In this document: piece by piece, positions 1,305 through 5,388 of the stretch
Layout of the letters: each line of letters opens with the position of its first letter
Numbering within the stretch: the stretch's first letter is position 1
Notes under the pieces: model-generated
Database searches by the model: none
Told to the model about the DNA's origin: nothing
Seen by the model: the letters and a program-made list of their open reading frames with translations, nothing else
Position numbers and translations under genes: made by a program
Origin: Candidatus Gastranaerophilales bacterium
GTDB taxonomy: Bacteria > Cyanobacteriota > Vampirovibrionia > Gastranaerophilales > Gastranaerophilaceae
DNA: 64,000 nucleotides
Direction: 5' to 3'
NCBI GenBank assembly: GCA_944326485.1
Contig: CALVED010000002.1
Location: 248,001-312,000, forward strand

Positions 1305-2264
1305 ATGAAAATTAATTCTATTACACCATCGATTATTTATTCTAAGTCCAAGGGAGCAGGGGCTTCAGGACACAGAATGAGAGAGAGTGTGTACGAGCGA
1401 CATAATAAACAAAATAATAATGACCAAATAAACACGACCATCAAGATGAATTCTGATGGTCGTGTTTATTTTAAGGGGGGTATTCCTTTGTTGCACAAAG
1501 CAGCAAATTTTGCCTCCGATAATCCATTAGTTGCAGAGGCCTTATTCGCAATACTTATTACTTGCGGATTAAGACCAATAACAATAATGGCAACAGCAAA
1601 AACAGATGAAGATAAAGAAAAATGTTCTTATCAAGCGGCGAAATCAGTTTCTTCTGGTTTTGTTGGACTTGCTACTACAGCATTAATCGGAACGCCAATA
1701 GCAGCTGCAACAAAACTTGCAAATAAAAAAGGTGCATTTAATATGCCACAAGGAATGAAGGAAAAATCACAAGAAGTTGTTAAACAAGGAGTTGATGCAT
1801 TAGTTGAATTCTCTAAAAAATTAACAACTGAAGGACGTGATTTAAATCTTGCACAACAAATAAATGCTTTAACCGAGGGTGGAAAAATGAATCTTTCTGT
1901 TTTCCAAAAAGCAGGTAAGCATGCACAAAATACTTTTAAAGAGCAGATATCTGAGAAAGCTCCTGATATATCAGAAAAAGTAGTAAACGCATTAAAAGAA
2001 CAGCAGATTATTAATAATTATGCTAAGACTGGTAAAAATGTTATGGATAAATTCTTCCAACCTGTATTTATGCCAATAAGAGCAACAATAACAATTGCAT
2101 TAGTTCCAATATTACTTGGCTTATTAGGGAAGAAAAAACCGGAGAAGAAACAACCTCCAGAACAAAATCCACAAGTAATGTTAAATTATAATGTATTCCA
2201 AGATAGTAATGAAAAAGCACTATTTCAGTCTTTTTCGGGAGTAGCAAATCATGAAAATAAATAG
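1305..2264 (+). CDS. MKINSI/FKG-family membrane-associated protein, function unknown
   Basis: Not a recognised enzyme. The 319-residue product starts MKINSITPS and reaches a VYFKGG motif near residue 55; the same MKINSIT...FKG head occurs in the next gene. The middle has two hydrophobic stretches (about 70-90 and 110-135, small-residue rich), and a third lies near the C-terminus (about 255-275), followed by a lysine/proline-rich tail. The start is supported by GGAAG 7 nt upstream of the ATG. The segment between MKINSIT and FKG is about 30 residues longer than in its neighbour and contains a perfect 18-bp inverted repeat (1426-1471). The stop overlaps the start of the next gene by 14 bp, so the two are surely co-transcribed. 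Function is unknown; the shared head might be a localisation signal, which is speculation. Confidence 0.8.
   Translation: MKINSITPSIIYSKSKGAGASGHRMRESVYERHNKQNNNDQINTTIKMNSDGRVYFKGGIPLLHKAANFASDNPLVAEALFAILITCGLRPITIMATAKTDEDKEKCSYQAAKSVSSGFVGLATTALIGTPIAAATKLANKKGAFNMPQGMKEKSQEVVKQGVDALVEFSKKLTTEGRDLNLAQQINALTEGGKMNLSVFQKAGKHAQNTFKEQISEKAPDISEKVVNALKEQQIINNYAKTGKNVMDKFFQPVFMPIRATITIALVPILLGLLGKKKPEKKQPPEQNPQVMLNYNVFQDSNEKALFQSFSGVANHENK
1426..1471. repeat. Perfect 18-bp inverted repeat inside a coding sequence
   Basis: The left arm 1426-1443 (AAATAAACACGACCATCA) is the exact reverse complement of the right arm 1454-1471, with a 10-nt loop containing GAATTC. It lies in frame within the MKINSI gene at 1305. 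The arm ends TTTATTT followed by further T residues resemble an intrinsic terminator or attenuator, but the hairpin sits 120 bp inside an open reading frame. Alternatives are the scar of a small palindromic element or a fold-back artefact. Confidence 0.85.
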
Positions 2265-3159
2265 TATAACACCGGGATATAATTCTCAAAAACAACAAAA
2301 CTATAAAAGACAAAATCAAAAGGATATGTCGTTCAAGGGTTTTGTTCCACAACCAGTTGTTAATGGATTATCTGATTTTTATGGCAAAGTTGCTTCAAAT
2401 CATGGTTTTCAAAAATTTATAAAAGGTTTTAGTAACTCTAATAAAACATTTACTCATGTAATGGTAGCAGAAAGTGTACTATTATCCGGATTTTATATGA
2501 TTAATACATTGAGAAATAAGAAAATTAAAAAAGAACAAAAACCTCAAATGTTAATTAATGATACTTTAACCTTAGGAGTTTCGGCTGCCGGTGCATATTT
2601 AGTTGAAGATAAAATTTCTGATGTAGTTATGAAAGGAGCTGAAAAATATTTTGGTTCTCATAAAGATTTTTATACTAAATTAGGTGCAAAAACAGCAGCT
2701 GCAAGTAAAGATGAATTGTTGACAAAAGTTGCAGATGTCGCCGGAAAGAAAGGCAGTGAACTTACTGAAGGTTTAGAACAAGTTTCATCTAAAATAGCAA
2801 GCCAGTTAAAAGGTCTGGTAGGGGAAGAAGGTAAATTAAAAGCCTTTCAAATTACACAAGATAAATTGGCTTCTGTTCAAAATGCAGTTAAAGATACAAT
2901 TACTCAAAATGCAGGTAATGCAGATAAGGCTAAAGAAGCTGTAAAAGGACTTGTTGATGATGTTTATAATTCCGCAGCAGCCAGAGGTGAAGCTGACAAA
3001 ATATTACCAGGTATTAATAAACTAAAGGTAATTATAATCTTAGGTATTATATATAGATACTTAGGTCCAGTTGTAATTACTCCAATTGCAAATAAAATAA
3101 GTTCAAAAATGTTTGCAAATAAGAAAGAAAATGTTGATAAATCTCAAGAAAAAAAGTAA
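2251..3159 (+). CDS. MKINSI/FKG-family membrane-associated protein, function unknown
   Basis: The 302-residue product begins MKINSITPGYN and has DMSFKGFVPQ at about residues 25-34, the same head as the preceding gene. Hydrophobic segments lie near residues 75-90 and 108-120 and close to the C-terminus (about 262-282), after a long alanine/lysine-rich helical middle (150-250) of coiled-coil or amphipathic character. GGGAG about 10 nt upstream and the matching head support the ATG at 2251, which gives a 14-bp overlap with the upstream gene. The tail is highly charged (KKENVDKSQEKK). The architecture of head, membrane hairpin, helical repeat region and C-terminal membrane segment parallels its neighbour, so the two may be diverged paralogues or partners. 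No enzymatic motif is visible. Confidence 0.8.
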   Translation: MKINSITPGYNSQKQQNYKRQNQKDMSFKGFVPQPVVNGLSDFYGKVASNHGFQKFIKGFSNSNKTFTHVMVAESVLLSGFYMINTLRNKKIKKEQKPQMLINDTLTLGVSAAGAYLVEDKISDVVMKGAEKYFGSHKDFYTKLGAKTAAASKDELLTKVADVAGKKGSELTEGLEQVSSKIASQLKGLVGEEGKLKAFQITQDKLASVQNAVKDTITQNAGNADKAKEAVKGLVDDVYNSAAARGEADKILPGINKLKVIIILGIIYRYLGPVVITPIANKISSKMFANKKENVDKSQEKK

Positions 3160-3216: not shown

Positions 3217-3328
3217 GGTGAAAAATTCACAATAAGCTGAAAGTGTGATGGAATTTTTGTAAGATGAAACCAAAACATTATTTTGAACGAGCTTGTATCA
3301 GTATAGAAATCAAGTGTAATACTTGATT
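3217..3328 (+). repeat. Dispersed intergenic repeat, copy A (full length)
   Basis: Contains the core AATAAGCTGAAAGTGTGA (3231-3248), flanked by AAAAATTC and GAATTTTT arms that can pair. A downstream part shares blocks such as TTGTATC with the copy at 26104. The copy closes with a small hairpin, AATCAAGT/ACTTGATT (3308-3315 with 3321-3328), whose end runs into the stop codon of the opposing gene. It sits between the ends of convergent genes. Confidence 0.75.
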
Positions 3329-4790
3329 AAATTGAACAAACAATTTGCAGAGGATATTCAAATATTAATTCTTCTCTTGCAACAACCCTTATATTAGGGA
3401 GCATTTGAGATAAAATTAAATAAATTAAATGCCTTATTTTCATTGGTGCAATTAAAACTATTTCTTTTGAGTCTGGAGCATATTTATTTACTTTTTCTTT
3501 TATTAATTTAATTATTTCTTCAATTTTGTTGCTTTCAATTCTGATAATTTCATCATTTGCTTTTTCGCCAATAAAAGATTCAATGCTTTTTTCTGATAGT
3601 TCATAGGCATAAATGGTTTTATCTGCTTCATTAATTAATGATTTACTTATTTGCCTAGCAAGTGAAATTCTTATTCTCTCAAGCAGTTCTTCTTTATTTG
3701 TTTCATCTGCGAAATCATTGATTTTTTCAAATATATAAACAATATCTTTAATAGAAACTTTTTCTTTTATAAGGCTTGCTAAAATATATTTAAGTTCAGC
3801 TACTGACATGTAGTCAGGAATTATATTTTCAACAAGATAAAGGTTTTGATTTCCTACGATTTCAATATATCTGTTAATATCAGAATAATCAAAAATATCA
3901 TCTATATTTTTTGTTACTATATATTCTATTGTCCTGGCTATAAAATCAATAGAGTCAAGTCCTTTTGCCCAGAAATTTTTTGCTTTTTCATCTTTAATCC
4001 ATAGGATTGGAAGTTGTGTAATATTATCTGTATCTTCAAAGGAACCGGATGGGAGTTTTTCAATATTTAATTCGTTTTTAAAAAACATTGTATAATTGTA
4101 ATATGCTTTTGATGTTATTATTGGAATTCCTCTGATTTTTACTGAAAATTCATTTTCTTGAAGCGTTTCGTCAATCTCGATTTTTATTTTAGGAATTATG
4201 TATCCGAGAGTTTCTGTTAAAGTTTGTCTTATTAAAACTATTCTGGATAAAATGTTATATTCATTGTCACTGTCAAGAATATCAATTAATTCTTCAGAAA
4301 TAGAGAGTGTAATTTTTTGTTCTCCTAACTTTTTTTCCATTACATCAGGCGCAATAACTTTCGCAAGTTTATGTTTTAAATCTTCAAGTTCGTTAATATG
4401 TTTTGAAATTTCTTCATTTAAAATTGTTCTGGAATCTTCTGATGTTTCATCAATAAGAGCTTTAACTTGAGTGATTTTCTGTCTTTTTTCTTTAATTTTC
4501 TTTTGTATATCAACACATAATTCATAAGGGTCAAGTTCAGGATTTATAATTCTTTCAATACGTGATTTGAAATTTAAAATATCAGATGTTTCACTTATTG
4601 TAGTGTCTTCATTTTCTGTTTCTTTTATGAATATACAATTATAAAAAATACCCTCATCATTTTCAATTTCTTGAAGTGAATATATATCCCAACCGTCTTT
4701 TGACATTTCATTTAATAAACTTTCAAGTTTTTCATTGTCGTTATATGGAGAAGTTCTTATTGTATAAATGTTTCTTGTTGGTTTATACAT
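3327..4790 (-). CDS. Orphan soluble protein with FlhA/type III export apparatus C-terminal domain
   Basis: The 487-residue cytosolic product has three parts. Residues 1-58 resemble the small DUF4177 fold (NEMSKDGWDIYSLQEI). Residues 65-155 are charged helices, probably coiled coil. Residues about 156-487 follow the cytoplasmic domain of FlhA/HrcV export-gate proteins: ILSRIVLIRQ...LGYIIPKIKI, then IRGIPI, ILASLIKEKVSIKDI, and a closing block LPNIRVVAREEL. In flagellar and type III secretion systems that domain forms a nonameric ring that docks chaperone-substrate complexes. The eight-helix membrane domain normally preceding it is absent, and no other flagellar or secretion gene is in the window. 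AAGGAT upstream of the ATG supports the start. The gene is probably co-transcribed with the one at 4852-5388 (61-bp gap). Its role is unknown; the domain call rests on pattern comparison from memory. Confidence 0.78.
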   Translation of the reverse strand: MYKPTRNIYTIRTSPYNDNEKLESLLNEMSKDGWDIYSLQEIENDEGIFYNCIFIKETENEDTTISETSDILNFKSRIERIINPELDPYELCVDIQKKIKEKRQKITQVKALIDETSEDSRTILNEEISKHINELEDLKHKLAKVIAPDVMEKKLGEQKITLSISEELIDILDSDNEYNILSRIVLIRQTLTETLGYIIPKIKIEIDETLQENEFSVKIRGIPIITSKAYYNYTMFFKNELNIEKLPSGSFEDTDNITQLPILWIKDEKAKNFWAKGLDSIDFIARTIEYIVTKNIDDIFDYSDINRYIEIVGNQNLYLVENIIPDYMSVAELKYILASLIKEKVSIKDIVYIFEKINDFADETNKEELLERIRISLARQISKSLINEADKTIYAYELSEKSIESFIGEKANDEIIRIESNKIEEIIKLIKEKVNKYAPDSKEIVLIAPMKIRHLIYLILSQMLPNIRVVAREELIFEYPLQIVCSI

Positions 4791-4851: not shown

Positions 4852-5388
4852 TTATTTTTGAATTATACCTGTTGCAGTTTTACCTCTGTGTTTGTAATTA
4901 AGAATATAATAACCTTTGCCAGAATCTAAGATTTCAGCTTTAGAATTAGCAGCAGTTCTCTCTTTGAACGCTATAAGATCTTCTTCAGCTTCTCTGTATT
5001 TTTTTAGTTTTTTATTGAGTTTTGCTTGCTGCAAGCGGTTTATTATTTCAGATTCTTCATTAAATTCTTCTTGTGTGTACATTTTTTCGACAAGTTTAAC
5101 AACTTTTACTCTTGCTCTAAGTTGATTACTTTGATATAAGTCAAGGTATTTTAAGTTGTCAGATAATACAACCATATAGTAGCCGTCAGGAATTTCATTA
5201 CCATTATCATCATATAATTTACAAGGCAGTGTTAAATTGGGATATTCAGTTGACTCTGGTCCAAATTTGTATTCCCTCTTATCACTTTCATAAACTCCAG
5301 CAGGATAAAAAGGCGTCGGAAAGTGTCTATCTGGCCCGTTAAAATCTGTCATGAAATCATATGCTATTAAATTAAAGTCTATTATCAT
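4852..5388 (-). CDS. Conserved hypothetical protein, 178 aa
   Basis: Not recognised. The N-terminal two thirds look like a compact beta-rich domain (IPDGYYMVVLSDNLKYLDLYQ), followed by a charged helical segment (about 105-150, NRLQQAKLNKKLKKYREAEE) and a short C-terminal beta stretch (GYYILNYKHRGKTATGII). There is no signal peptide or membrane segment, so it is probably cytosolic. AGGCAG 6-7 nt before the ATG supports the start. It lies immediately upstream of the FlhA-like gene in the same orientation, so it may be a partner of that protein; this is context only. Confidence 0.7.
   Translation of the reverse strand: MIIDFNLIAYDFMTDFNGPDRHFPTPFYPAGVYESDKREYKFGPESTEYPNLTLPCKLYDDNGNEIPDGYYMVVLSDNLKYLDLYQSNQLRARVKVVKLVEKMYTQEEFNEESEIINRLQQAKLNKKLKKYREAEEDLIAFKERTAANSKAEILDSGKGYYILNYKHRGKTATGIIQK

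Follow-up and report, generated by a model that had tools for sequence, protein, structure and literature searches.

A conserved free-standing FlhA cytoplasmic domain in Gastranaerophilales, an order whose genomes carry a filament-less export apparatus

Introduction

What does the cytoplasmic domain of FlhA do when it is encoded as a separate protein? To our knowledge this domain (FlhA-C) is the sorting platform in every known type III export system and never occurs untethered from the channel. The question is raised by a gene within a stretch of 64,000 nucleotides (the window) from Candidatus Gastranaerophilales bacterium (assembly GCA_944326485.1, contig CALVED010000002.1, positions 248,001 to 312,000; genome G000). 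A preliminary description of the window read the gene at 3327-4790 as a soluble FlhA/HrcV cytoplasmic domain whose membrane channel had been replaced by a DUF4177-like module and a coiled coil. It saw no flagellar or secretion genes nearby, proposed that the protein may be an independent ring scaffold recruited to another process, and suggested a structural comparison with FlhA-C and a genome-wide search for FlhB, FliP/Q/R and FliI. Among open-licence PubMed Central papers, no published description was found of a soluble FlhA-C or of the export apparatus of this class that is reported below.

Results

Identity, fold and conservation of the soluble protein

The plus strand across 3327-4790 is rich in stop codons, and the open frame lies on the minus strand, where it encodes a soluble protein of 487 amino acids (hereafter SOL). 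Residues 136-475 match positions 321-652 of the 657-position Pfam profile PF00771 (FHIPEP; E 4e-50), while profile positions 1-320, the multi-span membrane channel half, are unmatched in SOL. The NCBIfam FlhA model matches residues 135-486 (E 3.4e-44), and the absence of the channel half leaves the score far below the cut-off set for whole proteins; the NCBIfam SctV model also matches the FlhA-C part, well below its own whole-protein cut-off. The closest sequence match in the PDB is B. subtilis FlhA-C (3mix, E 3.6e-24). An AlphaFold2 model, for which 53 SOL sequences and seven FlhA C-domains were aligned (60 rows), had a mean pLDDT of 82.7 and a pTM of 0.66. Compared with FlhA-C and SctV-C structures, the model matched 6ch2_C with a Foldseek E of 4.3e-22 and 6wa6_G with a VIA-align Z of 30.0 (rmsd 3.2 over 327 aligned residues), and the D1-D4 fold is present. 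By sequence and predicted fold the FlhA-C domain is thus full length, occupying residues 156-487 (3330..4325, minus strand).

The remainder of the protein is of a different kind. Residues 1-59 (4614..4790, minus strand) are modelled as a beta-alpha-beta-beta module, with strand-helix-strand-strand predicted over residues 5-59; a low-confidence stretch follows, and then a two-helix hairpin at residues 88-145 (4356..4529, minus strand), which in the model occupies the place of the channel domain and linker. N125, L135, L138 and P148 are conserved around the hairpin in the alignment of homologues. The DUF4177 profile PF13783 matches 34 of 42 SOL homologues at E values up to 5 (best E 0.002), and the SOL of the window scores 13.1 bits against a gathering cut-off of 25, so that a DUF4177-like label for the module is plausible at a sub-threshold level. 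Foldseek gave no match to the module below E 0.001, with dodecins and others, weak matches, at E values of at least 0.03; the VIA-align matches to the N-terminal part concern the hairpin and not the module.

The preliminary reading of a free-standing FlhA/HrcV cytoplasmic domain is therefore borne out by the profile match, and the structural comparison that it suggested gave a strong match. Its account of the N-terminal part holds in that the channel is absent and a module and helical hairpin are there, with the DUF4177 identity remaining below threshold.

The gene is under strong purifying selection. Compared with a 96% identical copy (L003), SOL shows a dS of 0.36 and a dN of 0.019, giving a dN/dS of about 0.05.

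Residues of the docking pocket and hinge

In Salmonella FlhA, residues D456, F459 and T490 are described as the dimple for chaperone docking, and linker residues E351, W354 and D356 as aiding ring formation (PMC8166844). Gly-368 of the GYXLI motif is reported to be required for the open-close motion of the protein, the G368C mutation to lock FlhA-C closed, and F459 to have a part in substrate recognition (PMC9431611). Among 82 unique SOL sequences, the equivalent of D456 is Asp in 81; that of F459 is Thr in 71, with Ser in a further 10; and that of G368 is Ser in all 82, with Glu as the next residue in 80 and Glu again after it in 81. At the T490 equivalent, where the alignment is uncertain, 14 of 20 SOLs have Arg. 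The SOL of the window follows this pattern, retaining the dimple Asp and having Thr for the dimple Phe and Ser for the GYXLI Gly. Two features of the FlhA family, the GYXLI hinge motif and the D456/F459/T490 dimple, are accordingly both altered in SOL, neither being intact; eight filament-less FlhA proteins of the order have Asp, Tyr and Gly at the equivalents of D456, F459 and G368. Because the aromatic dimple residue is lost, classic chaperone docking may be gone from SOL. As far as the alignment can tell, SOL appears to retain the docking region with pocket and hinge recoded in a fixed manner, which would fit one dedicated partner and different dynamics.

A filament-less export apparatus in the same genome

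Two FHIPEP matches are present in G000, namely SOL and a full-length FlhA on contig 1. The latter lies in an operon that by Pfam encodes, from 5' to 3', two FlgF/G-like rod proteins, FlgB-like and FlgC-like proteins, a lytic transglycosylase, FliE, FliF, a FliG-like protein, FliH, FlhA and FliI; the FliG-like assignment is weak (E 0.007, below cut-off). A second operon, on the contig of SOL and about 130 kb away from it, encodes a protein with two FliM/N C-terminal stretches (SctQ-like), FliO, FliP, FliQ, a 124-aa protein and FliR (Pfam), and a third place in the genome encodes FlhB and, after it, a sigma factor whose nearest relatives are FliA/WhiG. The apparatus genes are thus distributed over contigs 1, 2 and 7 (L113, L114, L130, L131), and the export set FlhA, FlhB, FliP, FliQ, FliR, ATPase and FliF is complete. 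The full-length FlhA scores below both equivalog cut-offs (680.8 against 772.1 bits for FlhA; 599.3 against 692.25 bits for SctV). The 124-aa protein between FliQ and FliR (L130:7683-8057, minus strand) has no Pfam match and, by eye, a likely signal peptide.

Searches of G000 for the outer parts of a flagellum were negative. Flagellin (PF00669), present in 67 of 240 genomes of the class, was not found in G000, nor was FlgI of the P-ring. PF06429 matches two genes, both already named in the operon (FlgC-like and FlgG-like), with no further hook/HAP-type protein, and the sole MotA_ExbB match is an ExbB, which lies beside genes that we take from their sequences to be ExbD-like and TonB-like. Since gate and rod genes are present while flagellin, FlgI, hook/HAP and stator proteins were not found, the export apparatus of G000, judged by gene content, is of flagellar type and has rod proteins but no filament. 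Earlier literature, in the part of it consulted, took this gene set as an incomplete flagellum (PMC4040986); in our reading the subset may instead be a conserved machine in its own right.

These results bear on the remainder of the preliminary description. Its statement that flagellar and secretion genes are not nearby is correct for 12 kb of the window and for the 20 kb stretch examined but does not extend to the genome, where the FliP operon shares the contig. The proposal that SOL was recruited away from secretion, there being no export system for it to serve, is not supported: FlhB, FliP/Q/R and FliI were all found, together with full-length FlhA and the rod genes, and the proposed function is weakened by the completeness of the apparatus. 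The description had also named, as a case against itself, a full system elsewhere in the genome that uses SOL with a separate membrane subunit. Half of that case applies: an export system is present, but the cytoplasmic domain of its FlhA is complete, and SOL is therefore a paralogue rather than the missing half of that protein. The same full-length gene rules out a split of the genome's only FlhA into two parts, one of them SOL.

When full-length FlhA proteins of the class and of E. coli were placed in one tree (37 rows), the filament-less and flagellar types formed two fully supported groups, with the FlhA of G000 apart from the flagellar one. Two further families (f6, f7) have FHIPEP proteins of the filament-less group, and none of their genomes is among the flagellin-positive ones. 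On this phylogenetic evidence the filament-less apparatus is old and widespread in the class. Within the family of the window, FliP was found in 116 of 117 genomes and FHIPEP likewise in 116 of 117, the two missing cases being 57% and 63% complete. Most flagellin-positive genomes of the family carry both types of apparatus, with two FliP copies and two full FlhA genes; one (G084) has a flagellin match and a single FliP. In another genome (G056, contig 47:8002-9977) FlhA is read as two adjacent open frames of 210 and 512 aa, by frameshift or natural split.

Distribution and phylogenetic placement of SOL

A contig scan with the window protein gave 220 relatives, of which the best 80 were used. 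By title these belong to Gastranaerophilales, melainabacteria, Cyanobacteria or unplaced bacteria, apart from one Clostridia bacterium and one Heliobacteriaceae bacterium, which are likely misnamed. These best 80 of 220 relatives, in separate records, together with the matches in genomes of the class rule out an assembly or binning artefact. A profile made from 20 SOLs matched 186 of 240 class genomes (143 in the own family, one in a sister family and 42 in other families). Among the matches listed, and with SOL-strength defined as a best E of 1e-150 or better, 142 of the 143 own-family genomes and the single sister-family genome (G248) have a SOL; 34 rows beyond those listed may include family genomes without a match. 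No internal stop occurs in any listed SOL match. In the 42 class genomes outside the order the matches are no stronger than those of FlhA itself (E 1e-43 to 1e-66), and there is no SOL; the class outside the order thus has the apparatus without SOL. The sole exception among the 143, G002 (98% complete), has FlhA and FliP, which indicates that the apparatus can exist without SOL. G045 (99% complete) has SOL and FliP but yielded no full-length FlhA, probably through an assembly gap.

Because FliP and FHIPEP are each found in nearly every genome of the family, SOL co-occurs with the apparatus. Of the family genomes with SOL, 39 have flagellin and the remaining 103, by difference, do not, so that its occurrence follows the filament-less system rather than the flagellum. 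In a first tree of 57 rows SOL stood apart on a stem of 1.6. When E. coli FlhA and one long row were dropped, the resulting 55-row tree placed it, at a support of just 75/24, beside the filament-less FlhA found in the order and in three further families. A single clade of SOL with the flagellar FlhA of the order was rejected (p-AU 7e-6), whereas single clades with the filament-less FlhA of the order (p-AU 0.095) and with all flagellar FlhA (p-AU 0.25) were not. An assignment of SOL to the flagellum is not favoured, given the flagellin-negative carriers and the rejection of the clade with the order's flagellar FlhA.

Genes beside SOL

Directly upstream of SOL, 61 bp away on the same strand, lies a gene for a 178-aa protein (4852..5388, minus strand) without a Pfam or NCBIfam match above cut-off. 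It holds this position in 35 of 80 relatives' loci and is likely cotranscribed with SOL in this lineage only. In 21 of the 80 loci SOL lies behind a gene that we take from its sequence to be PSP1/RicT-like, and in eight behind a string presumably encoding BamA, Skp and a phosphorylase. The neighbours are lineage-dependent, and no apparatus gene recurs beside SOL in the 80 loci.

Two adjacent plus-strand genes of the window (1305-2264 and 2251-3159) encode proteins that both start MKINSITP and have orthologues with an SF-x-G-like motif near the N-terminus. A loose pattern of an M-x-I start and F-x-G was noise (18 of 141 ORFs). Over 802 ORFs around SOL, the density of the strict pattern [STN]F[KSTNGRHQ]G within the first 60 residues was 3.4 times that of the remaining sequence (23 against 33 matches), while three control motifs of like build gave 0.57-0.89 in those ORFs. 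The motif is a possible secretion signal, and a lead only, because many of the matches are orthologues of the neighbours of SOL itself. Two large enzyme-like proteins (L114:11145-15101 and L115:9938-11587, both minus strand) start MNIPKS and MKIQSI and have no evident signal peptide by eye; one of them presumably resembles a 5'-nucleotidase.

Further detached FlhA-C copies

Some relatives have other detached forms of the domain in addition to SOL and FlhA. Forms of 212-296 aa that skip D2 and stop before D4 were found at L042, L073, L164, L165 (twice), L166, L167, L187, L196 and L197, and a 418-aa form with hydrophobic segments and a whole FlhA-C domain at L191, in a genome of the genus of the window. 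Forms of 509 and 593 aa lie at L168 and L169, and L193/L197 are also among the loci with extra copies. The 593-aa form (genome G013) skips D2, and in a single pairwise comparison its N-terminal stretch resembles that of the FliG-like protein of the operon (25% over 114 aa, E 5e-9); the 509-aa form aligns with it over the FlhA-C part only. Because the genomes with extra copies were chosen partly for their many matches, no frequency of such copies follows.

Discussion

The explanation that best fits these observations, to which we assign a probability of roughly one half, is an accessory role for SOL, as a docking domain that has been recoded and serves the filament-less apparatus. SOL would be an order-specific paralogue of the FlhA cytoplasmic domain that lost the membrane channel and gained the N-terminal module and hairpin, and it would act as a cytosolic docking platform for cargo or chaperones. 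It would either assemble into a complete or partial ring by itself or join the FlhA-C ring of the gate, and would offer its recoded pocket to a dedicated partner; binding of substrate or chaperone, action on this apparatus and any oligomer are what we infer. This reading is favoured by the identity of the domain in both sequence and fold, by the order-wide co-occurrence with the apparatus in genomes with and without flagellin, by the rejection of a clade with the order's flagellar FlhA, by the conserved Asp in a uniformly recoded pocket and hinge, and by the low dN/dS. The fusion of a segment resembling the FliG-like protein to FlhA-C in G013 also argues for it, but concerns a paralogue and not SOL itself. 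Against it stand the lack of recurrent apparatus neighbours, the occurrence of the apparatus without SOL in G002 and in the class outside the order, the loss of the dimple aromatic, and the ambiguous place of SOL in the tree, where a clade with all flagellar FlhA is not rejected.

Two other functions deserve consideration. The protein might act as an antagonist or as a timing switch: by entering the gate ring, by capping it or by titrating chaperones, it would hold export shut or shift the substrate class. The invariant Ser at the hinge Gly is suggestive in this regard, a change at that Gly (G368C) being described as locking FlhA-C closed (PMC9431611), as is the near-invariant Thr or Ser at the F459 equivalent, a site of both docking and closure; the lineage-specific paralogues that skip D2, and in some cases D4 too, look moreover like ring parts without docking sites. 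However, D2 and D4 of SOL itself are intact and conserved, the dimple Asp is kept although a mere cap would have no need of it, and the protein is conserved near-universally across the family, so that an antagonist seems a rather unlikely role. The preliminary description suggested a ring or scaffold taken over by some process outside secretion, and the neighbourhood without apparatus genes (the 178-aa protein, the PSP1/RicT-like gene or the BamA-Skp-phosphorylase string, according to lineage), the new N-terminal module and the long stem in the tree are all compatible with such a history. Every genome in which SOL was found nevertheless falls within an order whose members carry the export apparatus, with no SOL outside it, and the retention of the pocket Asp and of all of D1-D4 points to continued docking; we consider this role unlikely. 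A decaying remnant of a duplicated FlhA would explain why the channel domain is missing, but is contradicted by the selection and distribution data (the dN/dS, the absence of stops within the listed matches, the invariant residues over 82 sequences and the presence in 142 of 143 family genomes) and is most improbable.

The accessory docking domain proposed here may be compared with known systems. SOL resembles the FlhA/SctV cytoplasmic domain in sequence (residues 136-475) and in its D1-D4 fold and keeps the equivalents of the dimple Asp and of R391; it differs in having no membrane channel, in the added module and hairpin, and in the exchange of the GYXLI Gly for Ser and of the dimple Phe for Thr or Ser. 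FlhX of Campylobacterota is a free-standing cytosolic paralogue of FlhB-C, separate from the full-length protein, that serves a flagellum. FlhX and SOL are thus both cytosolic paralogues of export-gate domains, although FlhX derives from FlhB and SOL from FlhA, and we know of no new N-terminal module in FlhX such as SOL possesses. FlhX appears among secretion proteins in one account (PMC9321776). Chlamydia is described as keeping the flagellar orthologues FlhA, FliI and FliF without a flagellum and, like the genome of SOL, retains a flagellar-type FlhA in a non-flagellated bacterium beside a paralogue; its FlhA, however, is given as having seven predicted membrane segments (PMC2830194), whereas SOL has none and its genome has a complete apparatus with rod proteins. 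The non-flagellar type III secretion system of Myxococcales, described as lacking motility elements (PMC3459982), is likewise a flagellum-derived export apparatus without a filament, but, compared by description, the apparatus of G000 differs in keeping FlgB, FlgC, two FlgF/G-like proteins and FliE.

A broader proposal can be put forward tentatively, and is on balance doubtful. Gastranaerophilales and the wider class may possess a type III secretion system that is conserved, has rod proteins but no filament, and has so far gone unrecognised; in the order itself, detached gate domains acquired by this system, comprising the near-universal SOL and the lineage-specific anchored, fused and domain-skipping forms, might be interchangeable receptor modules that choose the exported proteins. 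A conserved untethered FlhA-C would part docking from gating, so that each could be tested alone. The finding further draws attention to a gut order of non-photosynthetic Cyanobacteriota, widespread and mostly uncultured, with a complete export machine that lacks a filament.
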